Origin: Fidelibacterota bacterium TCS55
GTDB lineage: Bacteria; Fidelibacterota; Marinisomatia; Marinisomatales; TCS55
DNA: 64,000 bases
Direction of reading: 5' to 3'
Assembly: GCA_001577025.1 (NCBI GenBank)
Contig: LSCF01000002.1
Span: 1 to 64,000, forward strand
The notes beneath the pieces are model-generated. The model searched no databases. It saw nothing but the letters and a program-made list of their open reading frames with translations, and was not told where the DNA came from. Both the position numbers and the translations under genes were made by a program. Shown in pieces: positions 184 to 63,541 of this stretch. Every line of letters starts with the position of its first letter. Positions within the stretch are counted from its first letter, which is position 1.

Positions 184-350
184 ATATAACGGCAAACCCC
201 ATTGCTGCAATAGACGCCCCCTCGTTGTGAACCATAAGAAATACTCAATCGATTATTTTGATTCAGATTTAACACCATTTCAATATTGCCCCAGGTTAAA
301 GATGTATCCCAAATGGAATCCAATGCATTTTCGAGGGCGTTCTTTTGTCG
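135..350 (-). pseudogene. C-terminal segment of the DUF6029-like protein, beyond an in-frame TAA
   Basis: This stretch is in the same reading frame as the gene at 351-1838 and is separated from it only by the TAA at 351-353. It encodes about 71 further residues. These include the motif GSQRGGVYCSNGVCRYIQPF (about 190-249) and end in a terminal Phe, as outer-membrane beta-barrels usually do. Together the two parts make about 567 residues plus the stop, a plausible full-length protein. The segment could be dead, translated by readthrough of UAA, or split only by a sequencing error. It has no obvious start site of its own. Confidence 0.6.
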
Positions 351-1838
351 TTACTGCTCGATAACCGCTCTTTCTTCTGTATCAGCATAATCGACACTGA
401 GTGAGACAGACCATTTTGGTGATTTTGCAATCCCAATACTGAGGAATCGATTAATTTGCTTATCCTTTAGATATAAAGATGTGAACATATCCTGATTCAT
501 AGAAGGGAGACTCGAAAAAGTTTTTACCCCCTTTTTCTTTTCCTGGTATTCAAACAAAATATCTATACTGTATGACTTATCAAACCGGTAGGTAAAATGG
601 GTTGGTATGGTCATCGCGTTTAAAAATTCGTAGCTGAAAGATTTATGATTATCAATTTCACTATTCAAATAAATATCCAATACATCCTGAGTCTTGGCCA
701 AGCCGATTACATAGTAAAGTTGTTGATTCATGGCATATCCATTAAGCTCGCCATAAAATTCCTGAAATGGATTCATCAGGGAATTATCTGAAGGTAGGAA
801 TACTTCCTTTCCAGATTGCCAAATCCAGTCCGCATCGGTGTACCATTCGTTATGGCGACTAGATTTTGCCCATTCAAATGTGAATAAGGCATCAGTAAAA
901 ACTGGACCTGAAACGGTTAAATACGTGCCCACTTCATCATTAAAATCAATAACATGGGTTATTTTTCCCAACAAACTGGTATTATGTGTTTTAAAACCAG
1001 TGGGCATTTGTTGAATGGTTAATGCACCACCGGTGTTATTCACAAAATCCCAACGATCTAATGGCGATCTTGAATCGAATGAATAATTCTTATATGTAAA
1101 TCCTAAAGACCACTCTGCAACAAACAGATTTATATTGGAATACAAACCAAATCCATTTTTGTCCTTTTTTACGTAATCAATATTCAAATCCAAATTGTCT
1201 GCAAAGTATTGAATCGTGGTCCCAAACATCATATGGGACACGTCTTCATTGATACTCTTCGCCGGATTTGGATGATTCTCATTACTCTTAAGAAACTGGA
1301 CACTTCCCTGCCATTGATCGCGATTCAATACAATTCGTCCACCGAACATTTGATGATCTACTTTATAATTGGGAATGCGATCGTCAAAGTCCTGCACTTG
1401 ATTGGTCAATCGCCATATGGTTTGATTCCCTCCCAATAATTCAGCTGAAATGATATTATTGGACCATTGTATTTGACCACCGCGAATACCTGTATCCAAA
1501 TCAATGGATTGATCATCAACCATGTTTAGCATTAACCCTCGTCCCCAATATTCGTATAAATCACCGACCTTAAAGGAGAAATTATCTTTTACATAGTCTA
1601 TACGAAATTTGCGAAGCCCTATACTCTCTCTCCCTAATTGGGGCGGTTTTCCATATTCGAATTGGATCCAGCCTGTCCATTCATTCCAATTTCCATTCAG
1701 ATCAATACGATGCTCAGAAAATTTGAAATCATTTTCGCTGTCCCCATACTCTAGAGAAGCTGTACCGAAAATATTCATTTGAGCCAATAACATTTGACTG
1801 AATAGACATCCTGCCAATAAGCACTTTAAACGGATCAT
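351..1838 (-). CDS. DUF6029-like outer-membrane beta-barrel protein, interrupted
   Basis: The protein has 495 residues up to an in-frame TAA. It opens with a Sec signal peptide (MIRLKCLLAGCLFSQMLLAQ), followed by alternating hydrophobic and polar beta-strand sequence rich in Tyr, Trp and Phe. I assign it to the DUF6029-type outer-membrane proteins of the FCB group. The family's conserved C-terminal strands occur just past the stop, in the same frame (135-350), so the natural product is probably about 567 residues. It lies 7 bases downstream of the tlpA-like gene and is probably in the same operon. The function is unknown. A large secreted or outer-membrane barrel is clear; the family name is from memory of motifs. 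Confidence 0.7.
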   Translation of the reverse strand: MIRLKCLLAGCLFSQMLLAQMNIFGTASLEYGDSENDFKFSEHRIDLNGNWNEWTGWIQFEYGKPPQLGRESIGLRKFRIDYVKDNFSFKVGDLYEYWGRGLMLNMVDDQSIDLDTGIRGGQIQWSNNIISAELLGGNQTIWRLTNQVQDFDDRIPNYKVDHQMFGGRIVLNRDQWQGSVQFLKSNENHPNPAKSINEDVSHMMFGTTIQYFADNLDLNIDYVKKDKNGFGLYSNINLFVAEWSLGFTYKNYSFDSRSPLDRWDFVNNTGGALTIQQMPTGFKTHNTSLLGKITHVIDFNDEVGTYLTVSGPVFTDALFTFEWAKSSRHNEWYTDADWIWQSGKEVFLPSDNSLMNPFQEFYGELNGYAMNQQLYYVIGLAKTQDVLDIYLNSEIDNHKSFSYEFLNAMTIPTHFTYRFDKSYSIDILFEYQEKKKGVKTFSSLPSMNQDMFTSLYLKDKQINRFLSIGIAKSPKWSVSLSVDYADTEERAVIEQ

Positions 1839-10802: not shown

Positions 10803-11285
10803 TTAGGGCAAATTATATTTTACTTTTAGTTGATCCATTACGTTATTAGGGACAAATTTCGAAATGTCGCCTTTTAACCGGGCCACATCTTTAACCACAC
10901 TTGAATTTAAATGAATGAATTTTTCAGATGTAACCATTAATAAAGTTGATACATCTGAATTAAGATGATGATTCATTGTGGCCATTTGGAATTCAAACTC
11001 AAAATCGGAAACATGACGTAATCCTCGGATTAAGGCCGCGGCTCGATGTTTTCGGGCAAAATCGGCGATCAAACCATCCGTAGAAAATGCTTCGACATTC
11101 GGAACATGTTCCGTTGATTTCATAATCATTTCAATCCGCTCTTTCGGACTAAATAATGGATTTTTCTCCGCATTCGCTGCTACTGCAAATATGAGTTTAT
11201 CAAAAAGAGTCGCAGCCCGTTCCGCGATATCTAAATGTCCGTTGTGTATGGGATCAAAAGTGCCTGGATATATTACGATTCTCAT
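10803..11285 (-). CDS. coaD: Pantetheine-phosphate adenylyltransferase
   Basis: Transfers AMP from ATP to 4'-phosphopantetheine to give dephospho-CoA, the fourth step of CoA synthesis. The preferred start is the ATG at 11283-11285, giving 160 residues beginning MRIVIYPGTFDPIHNGH; this ATG overlaps the rsmD stop as ATGA. The open frame extends five codons further (to 11300), but that would add MEKRT before the first beta-strand. The nucleotidyltransferase motifs are HNGH (ATP binding), LIRGLRHVSDFEFE and LMVTSEKFIHLNSSVVKDVA. The rsmD-coaD pair is a widely conserved arrangement. Confidence 0.96.
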   Translation of the reverse strand: MRIVIYPGTFDPIHNGHLDIAERAATLFDKLIFAVAANAEKNPLFSPKERIEMIMKSTEHVPNVEAFSTDGLIADFARKHRAAALIRGLRHVSDFEFEFQMATMNHHLNSDVSTLLMVTSEKFIHLNSSVVKDVARLKGDISKFVPNNVMDQLKVKYNLP

Positions 11286-11794
11286 TGTTCGTTTTTCCAA
11301 AAGGATAGCTGTGTTTCACCATAATCCTTTACTCTGAAGGGAGAAATTGGGAATTCTCTTGGTGAAGATTCAAGAATTAAAATGCCATCCGAATTTAACC
11401 GGGACAAGGCCAATGAAACGAAATGATCCGTATCATGATATCGATATGGCGGATCGGCAAAAATAATGTCATAGGGATTACATGAATCTAAAAATTTAAT
11501 CGCATCCTGTCGGAAATAATGGAATGGTGTATTCTTAAACAGTGCACCATTCATTTTCAATAACGCATTCACTCTCATACTGGATTCTACAAATGTTACG
11601 GACTCTGCTCCTCTGCTGGCTGCTTCAAAACCAACAATACCGGATCCTGCAAATAAGTCTAATACCGATTTCCTTGAAATATCCCTCAAAATATCAAACA
11701 GACTTTTTCGTACCAAGGATGTGGTGGGTCGGTACGGTGCATTTTTAACCGTTTTCACACGGCGGCCTTTATATTGGCCTGCCTGAATTTGCAT
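11282..11794 (-). CDS. rsmD: 16S rRNA (guanine(966)-N2)-methyltransferase
   Basis: An SAM-dependent enzyme that methylates G966 of 16S rRNA during 30S assembly. The 170 residues have the usual N-terminal RPTTSLVRKSLFDIL motif, the SAM-binding loop LDLFAGSGIVGFEAASRGA (about 41-59) and the amino-methylase catalytic motif ADPPYRYH (about 113-120; the DPPY signature). It lies 3 bases downstream of the PilM-like gene and overlaps coaD, so it is likely in a long polycistronic unit. Confidence 0.95.
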   Translation of the reverse strand: MQIQAGQYKGRRVKTVKNAPYRPTTSLVRKSLFDILRDISRKSVLDLFAGSGIVGFEAASRGAESVTFVESSMRVNALLKMNGALFKNTPFHYFRQDAIKFLDSCNPYDIIFADPPYRYHDTDHFVSLALSRLNSDGILILESSPREFPISPFRVKDYGETQLSFWKNEQ

Positions 11795-11797
11795 GAT

Positions 11798-13510
11798 TTA
11801 TCCTTGTGGCTCTGGTTGGGTTTTACCATAAATGGATATATAATAAATAGCAGATGGCTGCACTGAATCTGTGCCACCCTTATATACAAATTTTTCTAAT
11901 GCAATATTTTGTCCATTAGATAGCAAATGGTTCAAAAGTGTTTGAATATAATTATCCCCACTGACCCTAACAATTACTGGCGTAATTGAACGACCATCCT
12001 TCTCAATAGAATCTAATGCTTTGAAAAATGATTGCTGAATATTTCCAACATGGGCTTCAAAATCTTCAAGCGATTGTGCCATCTCAGGGCTGAATGATGT
12101 GACGGAAACGTATTGCACGAGATATCCATGCTCAAATCGCTCATCACCTGCCACTTGCCGAAGTGAATAGTTTAGCACATCACCAATTGAATCAATTGAC
12201 GCATCCATGGTTTTATCACCAAGCAATTCTAAATCCATTCGCCCGTCGCTAATGGATAACAATAATATTTGATGTTGATCCGTCAAGCTCAGAGTTTTAA
12301 GTGCGGTTGCAATTAAACTTTGGGATTTGACCAGATATTTCGGCAATGCCTTTACTGGCTCAGTTTTCACTACTGGCGTTTGCGTAGTCGATTTAATTTC
12401 CGCTTTGTGTATTTCGGATTCTACCCATTTGAGTTTGGGGATAATATCTGTAAATAATTCTGGTTTTTGATCATAAATAAGCATGATCCCAATGGTAACA
12501 AAAAAGAAAATGTACAGTATAGTTTTCAGTCCATTTCCCGAACTCTTCTTGACTACAATTTTTGGCTCTTTTTTCTTTTTTATCTTTTTTTCTTCTTTTG
12601 GTTTTGGTTCAACTTTTGGTCCAGGTGGTTGATAGCTAAATGGTTGAAAACCCGGTTGATCAAAAAAGTTTAACGCCACCCCTTTGACAGTTCCAGTAGC
12701 AACTGCCGTAAAACAGTAAAGGTCTTCTTCAGTTATAGATTTGGGTATAATATCGCCTTCTATATTGATGCCTGTCAAAGATACCATTTGCTTGATTCGG
12801 CGTCCTTTAAAATGGGCTTTTCGCTGATCAGATAATTTCCCGGCTGCTAAAAGTTGGCCTTTAAATGCTTCTTTAGGATTACTGCTCCCATTAGCGGCAT
12901 GGAGCACCCATTCCCCTTTGAGAAACCTGGCCGTGCCATTTTGAAATTCAGATTGAGAATATTGATGGTAATTATATCCAGTTTTTTCGATTTGAAATAC
13001 GGTACAACCTTTTTCAGGGTTTAATCCAAAAAAGGTACTGGATTCTGTCCCCATCCAATAGGCTTCTCCACCCAATTCTTGAATAGCCATTTTAATGGGT
13101 TCAGTGAAGGTGGATGATACACGTACAGCATATACATGTCGATTATTCTCACCAAAAGATCGGCCAAAATATTCATGATTTTTGTCTGTAGACCAACGCT
13201 GATTCAGCGTCCATTTGGCGAAAGACCATCCGTCATTTTCCGTCATATCTTGTTCAAAAGGGACGAATACAGATTGGGTGAATTCATCGGGAATAGTCAC
13301 AAAGACTTTTTCACCTTCAAACGGAATATCTTCTCGGATTAAATGGAGACCGGCGTTGAGAACAGAAACAATTTCACTCTCAACAGAATTCAAAAGACTT
13401 AAGGGCCTTGGGAGTGATTTATAGGATATAGAAGAAAGTAACGGTTTCGCATCTTTCTCAGTCCATTGTGCACAAAAAAGATGGCTATCCGATATTGCGA
13501 GATGGATCAC
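11798..13510 (-). CDS. PilM/GspL-like single-pass inner-membrane protein
   Basis: The start is GTG (13508-13510). The 570 residues divide into three parts. A cytoplasmic part (about 1-280) has a pattern like the actin-like PilM/GspL fold: MIHLAISDSHLFCAQW at the start, then VFVTIPDEFTQSVFVPFEQ. A long Pro/Lys/Glu-rich linker (about 295-325) leads to one transmembrane helix near 332-350. A periplasmic part (about 380-570) has two alpha/beta units, like the ferredoxin-like domains of PilN/PilO/GspL. This layout matches type II secretion GspL or a PilM-PilN fusion. No other secretion or pilus gene except a ComEA-like protein is near. The architecture is seen; the family call is inference. Confidence 0.5.
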   Translation of the reverse strand: MIHLAISDSHLFCAQWTEKDAKPLLSSISYKSLPRPLSLLNSVESEIVSVLNAGLHLIREDIPFEGEKVFVTIPDEFTQSVFVPFEQDMTENDGWSFAKWTLNQRWSTDKNHEYFGRSFGENNRHVYAVRVSSTFTEPIKMAIQELGGEAYWMGTESSTFFGLNPEKGCTVFQIEKTGYNYHQYSQSEFQNGTARFLKGEWVLHAANGSSNPKEAFKGQLLAAGKLSDQRKAHFKGRRIKQMVSLTGINIEGDIIPKSITEEDLYCFTAVATGTVKGVALNFFDQPGFQPFSYQPPGPKVEPKPKEEKKIKKKKEPKIVVKKSSGNGLKTILYIFFFVTIGIMLIYDQKPELFTDIIPKLKWVESEIHKAEIKSTTQTPVVKTEPVKALPKYLVKSQSLIATALKTLSLTDQHQILLLSISDGRMDLELLGDKTMDASIDSIGDVLNYSLRQVAGDERFEHGYLVQYVSVTSFSPEMAQSLEDFEAHVGNIQQSFFKALDSIEKDGRSITPVIVRVSGDNYIQTLLNHLLSNGQNIALEKFVYKGGTDSVQPSAIYYISIYGKTQPEPQG

Positions 13511-14707: not shown

Positions 14708-15828
14708 TCCAAATCAACTCGTGTAAATGATGGCTCAGCCTGACCATTGATATTGGCCATTTCTTCCAGCAATTTCTTTTGCTGCTTTGATAAGGATTTT
14801 GGTGTTACCACTTGTATTCGCACCAATTGGTCTCCCCGAGAAGAGCCGCGGACTTTTGGGAATCCTTTTCCGCGCATTCGTAAAATTTGTCCCGATTGAA
14901 TTCCTGCAGGGATTTTGAGTTTTGCTTTCCCTTCTAAGGTTGGGACTTCTAAAGAAATCCCCAAGGCAGCTTGATAAATCTGTATTTTAGCTTCCGTGAT
15001 GACATCTTCCCTATTTCGAGTGAAAACAGGATGAGGCTTCTCCTCAAAGAATATAATTAAATCGCCGGACTCATACCCTTTAGGACCTTTATTGCCTTGG
15101 CCATTTAATGTCATGTAATTCCCTTCCGCAACACCCATTGGAACCTTTACTTTAATTTCGACTGTTTTACGTTGAATTCCATTACCACCACAACCACGAC
15201 AGGGGTTTTCAATCATTTCTCCGGACCCATTACACACCGGACATTCTCTGACAGTTACCGATTGACCAAAAAATGATTGGGACATTTGTCTAATTTGGCC
15301 TGAGCCACTGCACTGTCGACATGATGTGGGCATTGTACCCACCTGAGCACCACTTCCTTTACATGTATCGCAGGTTTCGTGCCTTTTGATTTTTATCGTC
15401 TTATCAGTCCCTTTAACAATATCTGTGTAGTCCAATGCTAGACTCACCTTCAAATCTCTGGCTTTTTTTACGCGACGCCGACGGCCACCCCCACCAAAAA
15501 TGCCGCCAAATGGGTCAAAGTCTCCTCCAAATATATCGCCGAAACTACTGAAAATATCTTCCATGGACATGCCCCCATGAAATCCACCTCCACCAGGGCT
15601 ATCTCCCATACCCACGCCTGCATGGCCAAATTGATCGTATTGTCGTCTTTTCTGATCATCAGAAAGAACCGAGTATGCTTCAGCTGCTTCTTTAAATTGT
15701 CGCTCTGCCTCTGCATCTCCGGGATTTTTATCCGGATGATATTTCATGGCTATTTTACGATAGGATTTTTTTATATCGTTGTCCGATGCGCCTTTGTCGA
15801 CGCCAAGAATGTCGTATAAGTCTCTCAT
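14704..15828 (-). CDS. dnaJ: Chaperone protein DnaJ
   Basis: An Hsp40 co-chaperone that stimulates the DnaK ATPase and delivers unfolded clients. The 374 residues show an N-terminal J domain (about 1-70, with YHPDKNPGD containing the HPD motif), then a Gly/Phe-rich region (about 75-115). The zinc centre has four CxxCxGxG repeats (CDTCKGSG, CRQCSGSG, CPVCNGSG, CRGCGGNG; about 133-206), followed by the C-terminal substrate-binding domains. It starts with ATG overlapping the grpE stop (ATGA) and ends overlapping the ComEA-like gene. dnaK is not in the window. Confidence 0.97.
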   Translation of the reverse strand: MRDLYDILGVDKGASDNDIKKSYRKIAMKYHPDKNPGDAEAERQFKEAAEAYSVLSDDQKRRQYDQFGHAGVGMGDSPGGGGFHGGMSMEDIFSSFGDIFGGDFDPFGGIFGGGGRRRRVKKARDLKVSLALDYTDIVKGTDKTIKIKRHETCDTCKGSGAQVGTMPTSCRQCSGSGQIRQMSQSFFGQSVTVRECPVCNGSGEMIENPCRGCGGNGIQRKTVEIKVKVPMGVAEGNYMTLNGQGNKGPKGYESGDLIIFFEEKPHPVFTRNREDVITEAKIQIYQAALGISLEVPTLEGKAKLKIPAGIQSGQILRMRGKGFPKVRGSSRGDQLVRIQVVTPKSLSKQQKKLLEEMANINGQAEPSFTRVDLD

Positions 15829-16367
15829 GACGGTGTTTGATTTACCACCACTTTCGCATGACGGATGACACGATCCTTATAACGATACCCCATTTCGAAT
15901 ACCTCTAATATTTCATTTTCGGCCTTCCCTTCTTCACTGCGCATCATCAGGGCATCATGAAGTTCAGGATCAACAGTATCCCCCGGCTTGGTAAAAGGCT
16001 TTACTTCCATTTCATCAAATCGTTTATTGATTTTATTTATAATTAATTCAATACCTTCATGAAGCGTCTCTTTGTTGGACTCTCCATTCTCCACAGATGC
16101 AGATTCCAAACGACCTAAGTCATCCAATACAGATAAAAATTGTTTGATGACTGCTTCACCATCATATTTCAGAAGATTCGATGTTTCCTCCTGCTTACGG
16201 CGACGGTAATTATCGAATTCTGCTTTTAAACGCAAAAATCTGTCGGAATGATTTTCCACCTCCGATTTAAGCGATTTTATTTCTTCCTTCAGTTTGGCTG
16301 TAGGCGATAATTTAGGTGCTTTTTTCTTTGGCGCACTCTTATTTGTTTTTTTTTGTTTAGATGGCAC
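15825..16367 (-). CDS. grpE: Nucleotide exchange factor GrpE
   Basis: Releases ADP from DnaK. The N-terminus is a Lys-rich disordered segment, followed by a long coiled coil (KLKEEIKSLKSEVENHSDRFLRL, given here in part) and the conserved FDNYRRRKQEE. The C-terminal beta domain has PGDTVDPELHDALM and GYRYKDRVIRHAKVVVN. No ATG is available. A GTG at 16365-16367 has GGAG (16378-16381) ten bases upstream, while the TTG at 16374-16376 is only one base from that GGAG, so I prefer GTG. The gene overlaps hrcA by about 11 bases and dnaJ by 4 bases. Confidence 0.94.
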   Translation of the reverse strand: MPSKQKKTNKSAPKKKAPKLSPTAKLKEEIKSLKSEVENHSDRFLRLKAEFDNYRRRKQEETSNLLKYDGEAVIKQFLSVLDDLGRLESASVENGESNKETLHEGIELIINKINKRFDEMEVKPFTKPGDTVDPELHDALMMRSEEGKAENEILEVFEMGYRYKDRVIRHAKVVVNQTPS

Positions 16368-17388
16368 TTTGTACAATCTCCGTAAATTTTTCTAATAGGG
16401 CTTTAAGTGAGAAATAGGGTACTCGCTTTGGACCGATTACACCAATTCTCCCCTGCATCATACCGCTATCAAATTGGGTTGTGATGATGGCACAGTCTTC
16501 TAAACGAATATCGCCATTCTCTGTACCGATTAATGTATTGTTCGAGTTCAAATGAAAATTTTCTTTAAAATGATCATTCAAAAATGGTTTTTCCAATACA
16601 GGCAAAACCCGCTGATAGGATGTTAAATCCTGGAATTCAGGCTGATCAAGTAACACATTCGTAGATGAAGTATATATTTTGTTATTGCTATCGATAGTAA
16701 AATATGAATACCGTTCATTTATCAGGATTTGAACCAATTCATGGTCATACATTTCTGCATCGTTTAACCGATGTTTCATCGTGGATTGGATTTCTTTTAA
16801 TGTTAATCCAATCAATCGATCTTTCAATAATTGAGTAATATTTTGAATTCGCTTACTGTTTATGTGAATATCCAGATTTAATACGATAGATTTGACTAAA
16901 CCAGTATCTAATGCCAGAACAAACATAATCCGATCCCCTTGGATGGGCACCAACTCAATATCTGTCAACTTACTCTGCTGGTATCCAGAAATGGTCACCA
17001 CACCAAACATACTGCTTATTTTAGCCAACATTTCTGCTGTTGCCCCTAGTAGTTCGTCTACATTGTTTGAAATGGTCAATAGCTCTTTCCTAATATCCTG
17101 GCCCAAAGGAATATCCATCGTGTGTACGGAATTAAGTCGACTTATATAAAAACGATATCCTATATCCGTTGGCACACGCCCACCGGAAGTATGCAGATGA
17201 GTGAGGAATCCTTTTTCCTCAAGAGAGGCCATCTCATTCCGGATGGTGGCCGGTGATACGTTCAGTTGATTGTTATCTTTGATAAAACCGGATGATACGG
17301 GCATACCATTATCAATATACCCCTCTATCACAGCCGTTAGAATTGCTGCTTCTCTATCAGTCAAATTATGGTTTTTAGGTTCAGACAT
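16357..17388 (-). CDS. hrcA: Heat-inducible transcription repressor HrcA
   Basis: The repressor of class I heat-shock operons, which binds CIRCE elements and is kept folded by GroE. The 343 residues show the N-terminal winged helix (about 1-75) with LTDREAAILTAVIEGYIDNG, VSPATIRNEMASLEEKGFL and HLHTSGGRVPTDIGYRFYI. GAF-like and inserted dimerisation domains follow, ending in GRIGVIGPKRVPYFSLKALLE. It heads hrcA-grpE-dnaJ, a classical arrangement. I could not find a CIRCE repeat (TTAGCACTC-N9-GAGTGCTAA) in the 57-base gap upstream, so the control region may lie further upstream, or the site may have diverged. Confidence 0.95.
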   Translation of the reverse strand: MSEPKNHNLTDREAAILTAVIEGYIDNGMPVSSGFIKDNNQLNVSPATIRNEMASLEEKGFLTHLHTSGGRVPTDIGYRFYISRLNSVHTMDIPLGQDIRKELLTISNNVDELLGATAEMLAKISSMFGVVTISGYQQSKLTDIELVPIQGDRIMFVLALDTGLVKSIVLNLDIHINSKRIQNITQLLKDRLIGLTLKEIQSTMKHRLNDAEMYDHELVQILINERYSYFTIDSNNKIYTSSTNVLLDQPEFQDLTSYQRVLPVLEKPFLNDHFKENFHLNSNNTLIGTENGDIRLEDCAIITTQFDSGMMQGRIGVIGPKRVPYFSLKALLEKFTEIVQSAI

Positions 17389-25065: not shown

Positions 25066-27872
25066 TATTTAATGACACCCACTTTGATGATCTTTTCTTC
25101 GGATTTACCATCGGCACTTACAATTACTCTTGCTAGATAAACGCCGGATTCAATCTTGGATACATCCCAAGAAACTTCTACCAATTCTTTCAAGGTGTAT
25201 TTAGTAGAAGGAAAATAATGTGGTTGAAAATCTGTATTGATACTTTCGACAGGGTATCCAGCCAAATCAAATATATTAATATTAATGTTTTCGGCTCGAC
25301 CAACTTGAATGCGAAAAGTAACAATGTCGCCATAACTGGGATTAGGGTATGCATACGTCAAATCTAAATCTATCAGATACGCATCCGGAGGATTGGACTT
25401 CTCATTCTTAAATATTCTTGAATAATCAGGAGAACTATATGTGTAATTCCACTCGTTACCATTCGTGATAGAATTTTTTTTGAACTGAATAATTTTGGTT
25501 TCTGTTATAATTACTTGATTACCATTATATGAACCTACACCAATTAATTTGTCTCCAGTCATAATCCGGTCTATCTCTATACCTTCATTATTAAGACTTA
25601 GGATATTACCGTCAGCATTTTGAAACACTAATTCTGGGTTTTCATCATTTAATAGATCAACCCCTAAAATGGGACTTATAGCATTGGCATCAATTGGGAA
25701 ACCGTTTTTATAGATAAACCTAGAATCCAACGCATGGATATTGCCTTGATCATCTGTAAGAATTAATTCAGCATCCCCATCATTTTCAAAGTCTAGTAAT
25801 GACAGATAATCAAAACTTCCCTTAAAGACAATATTTTCAGGTTTTGAATTTTCAGTAAAAGAAATGCCATTAGTACTTAAATAATATCTATCTCCATGAT
25901 GAGTGCCAGTATATGGTATGTTGTCTTGGGGAGAATTCAAATTTTCAATTTTATTTTGAGTAACAACATATGTTGATTCTTCGGTAGATATCCAAATTTG
26001 GGATTTTTGCCCATCTCCCTTTAAAAGTTTTACATTTTTGGAACTTGAGATTCTATTTTCCCATTTCTTCGAAAAGGACTTAGAATCATTATCAAATTCA
26101 AACCATTCAACTACCCAATCATTCTCAACAGATTTTACCGTGGCTAAAGCAGTGGGGTTTGAATTCTGCACCACACAAACTTGTAGATTTTCTCCCTCAT
26201 TTTTATATAATGCATTGATATCATTTAAGTCATCTCCCCACCAGAGTGAATCCCCTTCACCCACAAAATCCAAATCGCCGTCCCCATCCACATCCCATTG
26301 AAACAGAATGGATTTTTTTTCATCCGTCAAATAGGCTAAATCATAACTGGATGAGAAGTTGAATGTCATGGTCTTTCCAGCGCGTGAAATATTGCTGATA
26401 TTGAGCCCTGAATTCGCCCCAGAATTGGATTTTGTATTGGGATAGGTAAAGGAAGTAAAATCCATACTCCCTTCCGCATTGGCACGGATGTATTCTTTAT
26501 TTTCAGCAAACCACATATCCCCCCAATAGCCGGAAGATGGGTCAGTAAGCAGATTAGATACATAACCAATATCCTGAGCCCCGTCTGCCTCTTCAAGGTC
26601 TACACCTCGATGCTTTCGATCACCATTGATTGAGAATGAATTAATCCCTTCATTGATTTTCTGTTCATCAATATGCCAGATTAAGAGTCCTGAACTGGGA
26701 AGACCCAAATCATAATTGAGGACTTCTGTAATGACACCATACTCATTCTGCTTCACGCCCACGGAATCAAAAAGGATGTCTATTGTTGATGGATGTTTAT
26801 TTGTTTTTTCCCATACCGCATATCGCGCTGAATCGATACTCACCCCATCTCGAAACCAATTATTTCGATTTTCGATTAAATAATATTCATCATGACTGAT
26901 GGGAATTTTCACTATTCCATTTTCCACCCCACTTTGAATGGTAATTTTCCCGGGATACTTTACGGTAGTGGCCGTTTCCCATCCCGCATAGATTCGCGTC
27001 CATGCATCCGGTGGTGCAGGCACGATGCCGTTTCCATTGTTGGATCCCTGATCCATAAGACTAAATACACCCACACCGGACAAACCTGTTTCTAAATCCC
27101 ATAAGGGAGGCAGTCCAATAGCAAATCCGATCATCAATGCCCATGTACCTGTGATACTAAACTGTACATTACATGGATTGGTCAATGCATCATGGATCGA
27201 TGAATCCATAAGGATATGGTTTTGTGATTCTGGAAGAATAATCCCAGATGGAATGGATGCACTACCAATTTGAATTGCACCGCCTAAATGGGTGTTCACC
27301 ATATTTTTGTCAACAAATGTAGATGGTATATCCTCAGGGGTTGGATCGAGGAATGGAAGTTTAAAATCTTGCCCCACGCCGGGATGAATAATTGTCACCA
27401 GATCAAATGAACTAAAATCAATTTGATCTATATCAAATGCAGCTTTGACGCCATCTCGCAATAATTCCGTTATCCTTTTTTCGTGTGCATCCTCCTGTCC
27501 CAATTCATTATAATAATTCATCGGTTTTTGAATAACATAACTGCCTTCATTGTCACTGGGGAAAACTGTTGATTGGGATAAGTCTAATCCAAATTTTCCA
27601 TGAGAAACTGATCTGAAATATTGGTCCACTGCCGCTACATGAGAATTAAAATAGTTTAAATCATGAGGCGTTGGATCGATGGTATAGTCGCCGCATATAT
27701 TATTTTGAACCATTTCAAAGTTGCCACTTCCTGTAAATCCGGGATAATCACCTTCTGGAAAAGATACCCGAATAAATGCCACCTTTAGATTACCTAAAAT
27801 TTGAGCATTAAGTGGAAATAACGAGAAAAGCAGAAAGGCCAAAGCCAATCTGCATTGGAGAAAACGGTTCAT
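25065..27872 (-). CDS. M6-like secreted protein with degenerate zinc site and T9SS-type sorting domain
   Basis: The protein has 935 residues with a signal peptide (about 1-24). The first 500 residues follow the immune-inhibitor-A/M6 peptidase pattern. At the place of the usual AHEFGHALGLPDLYD it reads ALMIGFAIGLPPLWD (245-259), so the HEFGH zinc and catalytic residues are replaced by LMIGF. The next M6 features, FSLMDQGSNNGNG and APPDAWTRIYAGW, are kept. Residues about 530-840 have FG-GAP/VCBS-like repeats (FQWDVDGDGDLDFVGEGDS). The last 90 residues (AYPNPSYGDIVTFRI onward, to KVGVIK) match a type A T9SS sorting domain. It is probably a secreted, catalytically inactive binding or structural protein. 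Confidence 0.72.
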   Translation of the reverse strand: MNRFLQCRLALAFLLFSLFPLNAQILGNLKVAFIRVSFPEGDYPGFTGSGNFEMVQNNICGDYTIDPTPHDLNYFNSHVAAVDQYFRSVSHGKFGLDLSQSTVFPSDNEGSYVIQKPMNYYNELGQEDAHEKRITELLRDGVKAAFDIDQIDFSSFDLVTIIHPGVGQDFKLPFLDPTPEDIPSTFVDKNMVNTHLGGAIQIGSASIPSGIILPESQNHILMDSSIHDALTNPCNVQFSITGTWALMIGFAIGLPPLWDLETGLSGVGVFSLMDQGSNNGNGIVPAPPDAWTRIYAGWETATTVKYPGKITIQSGVENGIVKIPISHDEYYLIENRNNWFRDGVSIDSARYAVWEKTNKHPSTIDILFDSVGVKQNEYGVITEVLNYDLGLPSSGLLIWHIDEQKINEGINSFSINGDRKHRGVDLEEADGAQDIGYVSNLLTDPSSGYWGDMWFAENKEYIRANAEGSMDFTSFTYPNTKSNSGANSGLNISNISRAGKTMTFNFSSSYDLAYLTDEKKSILFQWDVDGDGDLDFVGEGDSLWWGDDLNDINALYKNEGENLQVCVVQNSNPTALATVKSVENDWVVEWFEFDNDSKSFSKKWENRISSSKNVKLLKGDGQKSQIWISTEESTYVVTQNKIENLNSPQDNIPYTGTHHGDRYYLSTNGISFTENSKPENIVFKGSFDYLSLLDFENDGDAELILTDDQGNIHALDSRFIYKNGFPIDANAISPILGVDLLNDENPELVFQNADGNILSLNNEGIEIDRIMTGDKLIGVGSYNGNQVIITETKIIQFKKNSITNGNEWNYTYSSPDYSRIFKNEKSNPPDAYLIDLDLTYAYPNPSYGDIVTFRIQVGRAENININIFDLAGYPVESINTDFQPHYFPSTKYTLKELVEVSWDVSKIESGVYLARVIVSADGKSEEKIIKVGVIK

Positions 27873-27884
27873 AAAGAACGAACG

Positions 27885-29246
27885 TTAGAACTGAACATTC
27901 ATGGAGAACCGCATGGTATTGGTCAATGGGTGACCGGGTTCTCCTGATGTATAACCAAAATCAAAACCGTAATTAGAGAATCGTAATCCTACACCAAATG
28001 TGGGATTAGAAATTTTTCCTGTTTTGTCGAAATAATATCCACCGCGCAAAGCAAAATATGATGAATACCAGTATTCCATTCCAAAGTTATGGACCAGTTT
28101 ATCTAACTCATCCTGAATCGAACGATCACCTGCAGAGCCCACTTCCTTTTGCCCCCATTGGTTATAGGTACCCCATTTATCATCACCAAACTTTGCACCG
28201 TACTCTTTGGCCGTATCTACCATTTCTTCCGGGTCGCGTTTACCATTTCCATTCGCATCGCCTGCCCATTCCCAACCGCCAATTTTACGGTCTGCATCTT
28301 CACCGGAAGGCGCACGGTCAATATCACCACCCAAAAGCCAATCGTCTACCCATGAGGTAAATATCGCTATATATATAGGATCTTTATGAGCCACTTCTAA
28401 ATCACCACTTTTGTTATAGTCGTTATTTTTGGCGCTTTCATTGCCGTCTTTATTGTAACCACCTATCATACCGTCTCCATCCCAATCCATATCCGGATAG
28501 GATGCCACCAGTAGTTTGTCTACATCATAGACCAACGTAAAACTGTTTACTTCATTTTTAAATACTTCATAAGCCAATCCAAATGTGAGGTTTGTGGGTT
28601 GAGGATCCGCCTGATCAGGATCGATAAAAGATACTTTGGGGCCGATATTGGTCATGGTAATTCCCAAATCCATTCTCGGCGTTAGCCATCCTTTTTTCAT
28701 GTAACCAAGGTCAAAGCCAAAGTCGGTGGATGTACCTTTCCCCTTTTCAGATCCCGTTCCCAACTCAACCAAATGCTGATAGGATATTTTTGCATTCATT
28801 CCGAAGGAAGATGTAGAAGATAATTTGGTACTATACGAAATGGCCGCTGCCATCATATAAGATGTGAATTTTCCTTGGAATTGGGCATATTCATCCATAC
28901 GAATTTGTTCACCCAAATTCAGGTAAATCAAATGCCCTCCTAAGGTGCCCAATTTGGGAAATTCTTTTCTAAATCCCATGAATTCATAGTAGAGATCATC
29001 AGCCAAATTGGGTAACCAATTGACATGCATAATAGCCAACTCAGTTCCTTGTTGAAACGCAAGTCCGGCCGGGTTCCAATAACTGGCATAAGCATCATTA
29101 GCCACAGCCACCTGTGCTTCTCCCATGCCGCCGGCACGAGCACCAGGTGATATCAGCAGAAATATTGCACCTGCTTCACTTTGAGCATTGAGGGACGAAC
29201 TGCCGATCAGCAGAAGCGCCGCCACAATTGAATATATCCGTTTCAT
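27885..29246 (-). CDS. PorV/PorQ-family outer-membrane barrel with EF-hand-like insert
   Basis: The protein has 453 residues with a signal peptide (about 1-22). The family start is clear: GARAGGMGEAQVAVANDAYASYWNPAGLA (about 35-63, given here in part), the UPF0164/PorV signature. The rest alternates as beta-strands and ends in NTMRFSMNVQF. PorV-type proteins carry type IX secretion cargo at the cell surface. Unusually, an acidic insert (about 252-350) has three calcium-loop-like segments: DWDGDGM at 254, DYNKSGDLE at 276 and DANGNGKRDPEE at 330-341. It lies 12 bases upstream of a protein with a T9SS-like sorting domain. An RBS-like GGAAAGGAC precedes its ATG. Confidence 0.85.
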   Translation of the reverse strand: MKRIYSIVAALLLIGSSSLNAQSEAGAIFLLISPGARAGGMGEAQVAVANDAYASYWNPAGLAFQQGTELAIMHVNWLPNLADDLYYEFMGFRKEFPKLGTLGGHLIYLNLGEQIRMDEYAQFQGKFTSYMMAAAISYSTKLSSTSSFGMNAKISYQHLVELGTGSEKGKGTSTDFGFDLGYMKKGWLTPRMDLGITMTNIGPKVSFIDPDQADPQPTNLTFGLAYEVFKNEVNSFTLVYDVDKLLVASYPDMDWDGDGMIGGYNKDGNESAKNNDYNKSGDLEVAHKDPIYIAIFTSWVDDWLLGGDIDRAPSGEDADRKIGGWEWAGDANGNGKRDPEEMVDTAKEYGAKFGDDKWGTYNQWGQKEVGSAGDRSIQDELDKLVHNFGMEYWYSSYFALRGGYYFDKTGKISNPTFGVGLRFSNYGFDFGYTSGEPGHPLTNTMRFSMNVQF

Positions 29247-29406
29247 AAATTGTCCTTTCCCCGGATTGGGGTATAATGTTGTTAGAGCTTAATGCCCTGT
29301 TAGCGTGAGAAACGATTCAACCGTTAGCGTTTATTTATATGCACTCCTGTGTCATTTAATTGAAATTACTCTTTTCTGCTCAAACGAGGCAAGGAATTCA
29401 AGAATT

Positions 29407-61780: not shown

Positions 61781-62508
61781 TATACGACCACACCTCCATC
61801 CACATTGATAACCGTACCACTGATATAAGATGCCTCATCGCTGGCCAAAAAACAATAAGCGTTGGCTACATCTTCTGGCTTACCCCATCTTTTTACAGGC
61901 ACCTTGTTCCCCATCATCTTGATAATTTTTTCCGGCATTTGGGCCGTCATATCTGTTTTGATGAATCCCGGTGCTACCGCATTCACGCGGATGCCATCTT
62001 TGCCTAGTTCACGGGACCACACTTTTGTCATGCCAATGACACCTGATTTTGTGGCCACATAGTTGGTTTGACCAAAATTCCCATAATGCCCCACCACTGA
62101 AGACGCATTTAATATAACACCGCTCCCCTGTTCTTTCATGATCGGTGCCACGGCCTGTGTACACAGATAAACACCTTTTAAATTGACTTCAATCACCCGA
62201 TCAAATTGTGCTTCTTCCATTTTCACCAATGTGCTATCCATGAGGATACCTGCATTATTCACTAATACGTCCACGCGGCCATAAGCATCCATGGTGGACT
62301 GAATCAAGGAATCCACACTCTTTTTATCAGCCACATCCGTTTTGACAAATAATCCGCCCACTTCATCCGCAGTGGACTTTCCGGATGTTTCTTCGAATTC
62401 TGCTACCACAACTTTGGCACCCTCTTTCGCAAATTGTTTTGCAGTAGTTTTTCCAATGCCTCGACCGCTACCCGTAATAACGCAAACTTTACCATCTAAT
62501 AAGTTCAT
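61780..62508 (-). CDS. fabG: 3-oxoacyl-ACP reductase FabG-type SDR
   Basis: A short-chain dehydrogenase of 242 residues. The start at 62508 has GGAG (62517-62520) eight bases before; a longer frame to 62622 runs into the divergent gene. Motifs are ITGSGRGIGKTTAKQF (NAD(P) site TGxxxGxG), VLVNNAGILMDSTL (NNAG), ASSVVGHYGNFGQTNYVATK (Ser-Tyr-Lys triad), and NAVAPGFIKTDMTAQMP. These agree with FabG. It may serve fatty-acid or PHB-type synthesis. No other fab gene is near, so the substrate could differ. Confidence 0.9.
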   Translation of the reverse strand: MNLLDGKVCVITGSGRGIGKTTAKQFAKEGAKVVVAEFEETSGKSTADEVGGLFVKTDVADKKSVDSLIQSTMDAYGRVDVLVNNAGILMDSTLVKMEEAQFDRVIEVNLKGVYLCTQAVAPIMKEQGSGVILNASSVVGHYGNFGQTNYVATKSGVIGMTKVWSRELGKDGIRVNAVAPGFIKTDMTAQMPEKIIKMMGNKVPVKRWGKPEDVANAYCFLASDEASYISGTVINVDGGVVV

Positions 62509-62530
62509 TAGCATAACTCCATCATAAATT

Positions 62531-62558
62531 AAGTAATTTCGATACATTAAAATTACTT
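62531..62558. repeat. Inverted repeat in the fabG / cystathionine beta-synthase intergenic region
   Basis: AAGTAATTT (62531-62539) and its exact complement AAATTACTT (62550-62558), spaced by 10 bases. It lies in the 79-base divergent region, where a regulator binding site is more likely than a terminator. Confidence 0.5.
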
Positions 62559-62587
62559 GTTGAAATTGAATTAAAGAAAGCAATCCA

Positions 62588-63541
62588 ATGATTTTAGAAA
62601 ATATTTTAGGTGCTATTGGCAATACACCAGTCGTTAAGCTTCATTCTTTTGCTAACAAATTGAATTGTGAATTATATGCCAAATGTGAATTTTTTAATGC
62701 AGGCGGTTCTGTAAAAGACCGGATCGGTCTGCGGATGGTCGAGAATGCCGAAAAATCAGGAAGAATCAAACCAGGAGATACTCTTATTGAGCCAACATCT
62801 GGAAATACTGGTATTGGATTAGCTTTGGCGGCGGCAGTAAGAGGATATAAAATGATAATTGTAATGCCAGAAAAGATGAGCATGGAAAAGGAAGTAACCC
62901 TTCGTGCTTTAGGTGCTGAAATTATTCGAACGCCGACAGAAGCAGGCCACGATGACCCTGAGGGGTTGTTTGAGGTCTCAAAACGATTGAATAAAGAGAT
63001 CCCAAACTCTCACATCCTAGATCAATATGGCAACCCAGACAATCCAAATGCACATTATGAAGGGACTGCAGAAGAAATATGGGATGAATTTGGATCTGAT
63101 CTGGATATGGTTGTTGTCGGGGTCGGTACGGGAGGTACGATAACAGGTATTGCAAAAAAGCTAAAGGAAATGAATCCAAATATTAAAATTGTAGGTGCAG
63201 ATCCTTACGGTTCCATTCTTGGAGGTGGAGATGAAATTTTTCCATATCAGGTTGAAGGTATAGGATACGATTTTTTCCCTGATGTTCTTGACAATTCTCT
63301 AGTAGACCAGTATATAAAGGTTGATGACCAAAATTCTTTTGTTATAGCGCGAAAATTGATTAAAGATGAGGGGCTTCTTTGTGGTGGATCAAGTGGCACA
63401 GTAGTTTGGGCTGCACTCCAAGCGGCTCAAACTTTATCTGAAGGACAAAAATGCCTATGTATACTCGCAGACGGAATTCGAAACTATTTAAGCAAATTTA
63501 TTGATGATAAGTGGATGAAAGAAAAAGGATTCAGTATTTAG
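62588..63541 (+). CDS. Cystathionine beta-synthase-like PLP enzyme
   Basis: A fold II PLP enzyme of 317 residues. [36 protein letters not shown] (PLP Lys), [31 protein letters not shown] and [10 protein letters not shown] are shared with cysteine synthase. The C-terminal half has [33 protein letters not shown] and [18 protein letters not shown], which match the CBS core more closely than CysK. No heme or CBS regulatory domains are present. It could make cystathionine or cysteine; no partner gene is adjacent. Confidence 0.85.

Follow-up and report, generated by a model that had tools for sequence, protein, structure and literature searches.

A private in-frame TAA divides a DUF6029 gene beside a suspect joint at the start of a draft contig from Fidelibacterota bacterium TCS55

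A single private stop in a gene with intact homologues, next to a foreign joint, is what is seen both in nonsense-interrupted pseudogenes and in consensus errors at contig ends, and the split DUF6029 gene described here shares all of these features with them and shows no difference from them. It also shares with programmed readthrough and selenocysteine recoding a conserved coding tail past a stop, but differs from those systems in that the stop is TAA, is unshared and is without unusual RNA structure. The split gene is itself an ordinary finding. Two described protein families bear on the locus. Candidate export barrels are reported to have HHpred similarity to DUF6029, and a role in polysaccharide secretion has been suggested in the part of that account drawn on here (PMC9603273). 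The hypothetical protein GOS_C with a UxxC motif, for which the NCBIfam model NF045500 (Omp28-related selenoprotein) is given in the excerpt of PMC13188914 used here, is a distant relative of the product of the gene that follows DUF6029 in relatives.

The window, meaning the whole 64,000-nucleotide stretch of DNA that was analyzed, comes from a draft genome of 98 contigs and 1,723,005 bases that is 91.87% complete, and its base 1 is the first base of the contig that holds it (C12). The first 495 codons of the DUF6029 protein, counted from an ATG start, lie at 354-1838 on the minus strand according to the ORF list, the translation and Pfam; the N-terminus of the protein has the look of a signal peptide, as judged by eye only. 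Next comes the in-frame TAA at 351-353, 351 bases in from the first base of the contig, and then a C-terminal tail at 135-350 on the same strand, which consists of 71 codons read from 350 down to 138 and a terminal TGA at 135-137. The original prediction had described this TAA as the sole break between a 495-residue frame and 71 further codons, with no frameshift needed, and on translation the description is exact: body and tail share one minus-strand frame, and no other stop is found in the remaining 566 codons. Upstream of the DUF6029 gene, at 1846-2379 on the minus strand, the ORF list and a profile scan place a ResA/TlpA-like thiol-disulfide oxidoreductase, whose real start is possibly more internal. 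The same order, ResA/TlpA-like gene and then DUF6029 gene, is also found in loci L005 and L035.

Assignment to DUF6029 (Pfam PF19494, with a profile length of 538 and a cut-off of 27 bits) was made with the protein read through, the stop being represented as X. This form scored 57.2 bits over profile positions 60-538, in agreement with the earlier naming of the protein as DUF6029-like. The 495-residue form alone scored 32.9 bits, its best stretch being profile positions 60-334. The tail is thus part of the protein, because the end of the profile is reached only when both parts are joined. Compared with the family, the locus is like other members in its full C-terminal coverage of the profile when read through, and unlike them in having a frame that ends 71 codons early.

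We searched for DUF6029 in 61 genomes including the window's own, the comparison genomes being one per species, and obtained matches in 47. Thirty of these matches, from loci L004-L033, were aligned, giving the window row and 29 homologue rows. The tail is reached by 28 of the 29 homologue rows, the exception being L013, which is cut off ahead of the stop site, and the motif C-x-N-G-[VI]-C-R is present in all 28, so that the tail is no chance extension. A natural protein of 495 residues with an unrelated sequence downstream is extremely improbable, and nothing was found in favor of it: the last position of PF19494 is attained only with the tail, and the 28 rows have it in one unbroken frame. 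The short form as a natural protein is excluded by this Pfam coverage together with the uninterrupted tail in homologues.

At the site of the TAA itself, a sense codon is found in 27 of the 29 homologue rows, with a gap in L027, no tail in L013 and a stop in none. Among the residues that occupy it are Glu, Asp, Asn, Gly, Lys, Ser, Thr, Val and Leu, and it is a variable, non-conserved position. In the nearest relative (G005, 72% identical) the codon is one for glutamate, which a single substitution would turn into a stop. The codon comparison proposed with the original prediction thus returned sense codons in every relative with an aligned residue. Intact orthologues of this sort are what is expected of relatives if the window's copy is a pseudogene. 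The only other stop flagged in the DUF6029 search, a TGA in G014, falls at the first aligned residue and is at or ahead of the gene start. Judged from these alignments, the TAA is not native to the DUF6029 gene.

The original prediction had also raised programmed readthrough, by which the stop would yield short and long forms of the barrel, and this part of it was not upheld. The continued conservation of the sequence past the stop speaks for such a mechanism, but the stop is confined to one genome (the position is never a stop in the 27 homologue rows where a residue aligns with it), the site is variable, and TAA ends more frames on the contig than either other stop: among 58 frames of at least 200 codons on C12, TAA ends 37 (the disputed frame included), TGA 11 and TAG 10. 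We also looked for a stimulatory RNA structure near the TAA in one 123-nt stretch around it, using 200 shuffles and pseudoknot-free folds, and found none above the shuffles, the fold z-score being +0.92 with 170 of the 200 shuffles at least as stable. Programmed readthrough is accordingly regarded as very unlikely on these counts. Reassignment of TAA to an amino acid in the source organism has a vanishingly small probability and nothing found in its favor, given that the same 37 of 58 long frames, the disputed one among them, terminate in TAA and that the recoded codon in relatives is TGA, not TAA; stop usage on the contig rules out a code change. What recoding is likely in this neighborhood concerns the TGA of the next gene in relatives, unlike the TAA here.

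A pseudogene would be expected to show relaxed constraint past its stop. Our test for decay used pN and residue identity only, dS being near or past saturation. Against G005, pN was 0.099 for the 71 codons of the tail, 0.164 for the preceding 71 codons and 0.172 for the body; residue identity was 0.82, 0.77 and 0.71, respectively. The tail pN is thus below that of the body, the reverse of the relaxation looked for in a pseudogene. Other 71-codon windows of the body ranged from 0.56 to 0.86 in identity to G005, and the tail is among the better-kept stretches, yet not unique. Tail identities of the window and of G005 to outgroup genomes were 0.73 and 0.73 for G007, 0.75 and 0.76 for G012, and 0.69 and 0.75 for G006. 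The lower similarity to G006, together with tail positions 8 and 21, where the window residues deviate although five compared relatives are constant, mildly favors some real relaxation. Decay of the tail after the stop was therefore not clearly seen by pN and residue identity over 71 codons. The lack of a clear loss of constraint points to a recent, a false or a bypassed stop, among which 71 codons with near-saturated synonymous sites cannot discriminate, and an absence of relaxation is also to be expected if the stop arose very recently.

Comparison with homologues places a joint at 136-142, where the end of the DUF6029 gene meets a fragment of a sugar-transferase gene. The fragment, at 1-141 on the plus strand, was recognized in profile scans as a WcaJ-type sugar transferase piece by weak PF02397 and TIGR03023 matches: the plus-strand frame 1-183 scored 22.6 bits for Bac_transf against a cut-off of 27, and WcaJ-type models matched residues 13-45, far under their cut-offs. 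This frame passes the joint and stops at 181-183 within antisense DUF6029 sequence, and the transferase piece is truncated twice, by the contig start and by the joint. When its first 46 residues were compared with 37 genomes, matches with E values of 1 or less came from 18, and the sole strong match besides the window's own genome was in G048 (E 6.7e-14, with 62% identity over residues 5-46, against 0.004 for the next best). HPYSEFIQK is common to the G048 enzyme and the window; after it the G048 sequence goes on as transferase, while that of the window passes into antisense DUF6029. About four to six bases at the joint (AAAA to AAAAGG) are compatible with either side. The DUF6029 gene ends there in TTTTAG in four relatives and in TTTTGA in the window, whose terminal TGA was probably contributed by the transferase side.

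The left end of the contig is chimeric or rearranged. The rest of the transferase was not found in the assembly, whose one further Bac_transf match, on C70, is weak at 11.2 bits, and of the partner gene that lies downstream in relatives the window's own genome yielded no more than a paralogue at C12:74543-75193. Assembler k-mers are longer than an overlap of four to six bases. Because the overlap is below that length, the joint probably derives from a real molecule, be it a chimeric read or genuinely rearranged DNA. The distance from the stop to the joint is about 210 bases, and a chimeric or rearranged end makes an error at 351-353 more likely; a real rearrangement beside a dying gene would look identical.

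We also examined the remainder of contig C12 for comparable pairs of same-frame neighbors, taking a first stop-to-stop segment of at least 100 codons and a second of at least 30. Eight of the 26 pairs obtained scored above the DUF6029 pair as a coding continuation, and the Pfam check covered these eight. The halves match different families in five of them, one of these matches (Por_Secre_tail) being below cut-off. The first half is without a Pfam match in the other three, which are window 62644-63009 with 61783-62640, window 11801-13510 with 11285-11797, and L079:14986-15771 with 15775-16449. Among the second halves of these three are a short-chain dehydrogenase match and a Cons_hypoth95 match, both nearly full-length, and a beta-helix match over part of the frame; the second frame of the beta-helix pair begins at a start of its own that has, by eye, a signal-peptide look. 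These three pairs are probably also separate genes, less firmly than the other five. Among the nine best pairs, DUF6029 alone is shown as one family across the stop.

Two further features of the contig are relevant. An 86-nt direct duplication, 77% identical and not a multiple of three in length, lies at L079:16264-16435 (C12:80264-80435) near the right end of the contig and shifts the frame of the beta-helix gene there; it is a second suspect joint, and possibly a join of two strains. In addition, a second copy of the gene cluster lies at L079:8878-13012 (C12 about 72.9-77.0 kb) and comprises a ResA-like gene, an Omp28-like gene and a DUF6029 paralogue that is 36% identical. The Omp28-like paralogue in this second cluster has Cys and a T9SS sorting domain. 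Elsewhere, at window 25068-29288 on the minus strand, a PorV-like protein is followed by a large protein with a Por_Secre_tail match below cut-off, a pair that may point to a type IX secretion system.

We consider it very probable that the TAA is a premature stop private to one genome's copy of an otherwise ordinary DUF6029 gene, arising from an error or from recent nonsense mutation and having no programmed role. The original prediction had named this pair of causes, and the pair agrees with sense codons in 27 of the 29 homologues and stops in none. The two are about equally probable. The TAA may be a wrong consensus base within the unreliable first few hundred bases of the contig, a sequence or assembly error at a chimeric and perhaps low-coverage end, to which we give slightly less than an even chance. 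The position of the locus at contig base 1, the foreign joint at 136-142, the failure to find the downstream partner gene and the transferase remainder in the assembly, the second suspect join near the right end and a tail without clear decay all argue in this direction, but the remaining 566 codons are free of other stops, and a single substitution equally resembles a real mutation. A genuine nonsense mutation at the codon after 495, fixed or at strain level, whose recency we infer and which may have gone with loss of the downstream partner by rearrangement, likewise falls a little short of even odds. DUF6029 loss could be tolerated because a second DUF6029 copy, with its ResA-like and Omp28-like companions, is present on the contig, and the joint could be a real rearrangement; on the other side, the tail bears no clear sign of decay, and an error is compatible with all of the evidence. 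If the stop is real, the 495-residue product would be without the conserved last 71 residues and, if made, would most likely be non-functional. The case warns against taking the opening few hundred bases of draft contigs as biology.

In relatives, TGA often interrupts the gene that follows DUF6029. The 37 genomes searched for this gene yielded 27 matches, and in 18 loci, for example L039 (G005:C44:105688-106743) and also L042, L049, L050, L052, L053, L056 and L059, the TGA stands in one and the same alignment column, where it opens the motif U-x-x-C. Cys takes its place in four loci (L038, L051, L054, L058). The remaining five (L057, L060, L062, L063, L064) match mainly through the Ig-like region; the TGA column holds Thr or Lys in three and is not reached in two, and L060, L062 and L063 have neither U nor Cys there. 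By coordinates, 16 of the 18 TGA loci adjoin a DUF6029 match, the exceptions being G018:C53 and G005:C6. Pfam analysis of P0002 and P0003 placed Big_2 above cut-off and DUF1223 below it, with Omp28 also below and in P0003 only. Of six TGA homologues examined, five matched NF045500, with 29.4 to 47.5 bits against a cut-off of 200 bits, and the sixth, P0002, did not. The TGA homologues are thus distant relatives of a known selenoprotein and not new in kind; our literature search pairing selenoprotein with Omp28 or with DUF1223 found no paper.

A potential selenocysteine insertion element was examined downstream of the TGA. Ten post-TGA sequences, a subset of the 18 TGA loci made up mostly of the more alike ones, share a six-pair hairpin in which 60 of 60 cells pair and three pairs show compensatory changes; its covariation score was reached by none of 500 shuffles, and slid controls were far off. 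When the same columns were read ungapped in all 18 TGA loci, six pairs formed in 11, five in four (L042, L049, L050, L053), four in two (L055, L056) and two in one (L059). Other hairpins fold nearby in L056 and L059, and the minimum-energy fold of L046 differs. In the hairpin a 6-bp stem carries a loop of 3 nt that opens with GG and lies 17 nt past the UGA, a geometry within the bacterial SECIS limits quoted in the part of PMC13188914 used here. As for the decoding machinery, tRNA-Sec was above cut-off in 31 of the 37 genomes and SelB in 32, the window's own genome having both, and among 14 control genomes SelB was above cut-off in two and tRNA-Sec in five. G005 has two TGA loci and no SelB above cut-off. 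In G016, SelB-like matches fall in two pieces at G016:C28:1278-3094 with one TGA and one TAG inside, representing either a broken gene or an assembly fault; an Omp28-like gene with a TGA is present in this genome, in which no tRNA-Sec was above cut-off. The conserved column, the hairpin and the machinery suggest that the gene after DUF6029 in relatives probably encodes a selenoprotein.

Structure prediction gave little further guidance on DUF6029. AlphaFold2 modeling of the intact L035 homologue from a three-row alignment (the L035 and L034 proteins and the window's 495-residue form) had a mean pLDDT of 35.2, and searching solved structures with a profile of that alignment brought up nothing useful, the best E being 0.16. 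From gene content, we tentatively propose, at somewhat less than even probability, that we have here, in broken form, a conserved Neomarinimicrobiota envelope redox cluster comprising a ResA-like thioredoxin, the putative DUF6029 barrel and an Omp28-like U-x-x-C selenoprotein, the TAA being incidental. In relatives, the probable Omp28-like selenoprotein has a Big_2 domain in front in several genomes. If this proposal is true, the putative DUF6029 barrel would partner a selenium-dependent surface thiol-redox protein, a role that differs from the one in polysaccharide secretion suggested in the portion of PMC9603273 cited above. The probable Sec-containing neighbor would give the uncharacterized DUF6029 protein a testable functional context.
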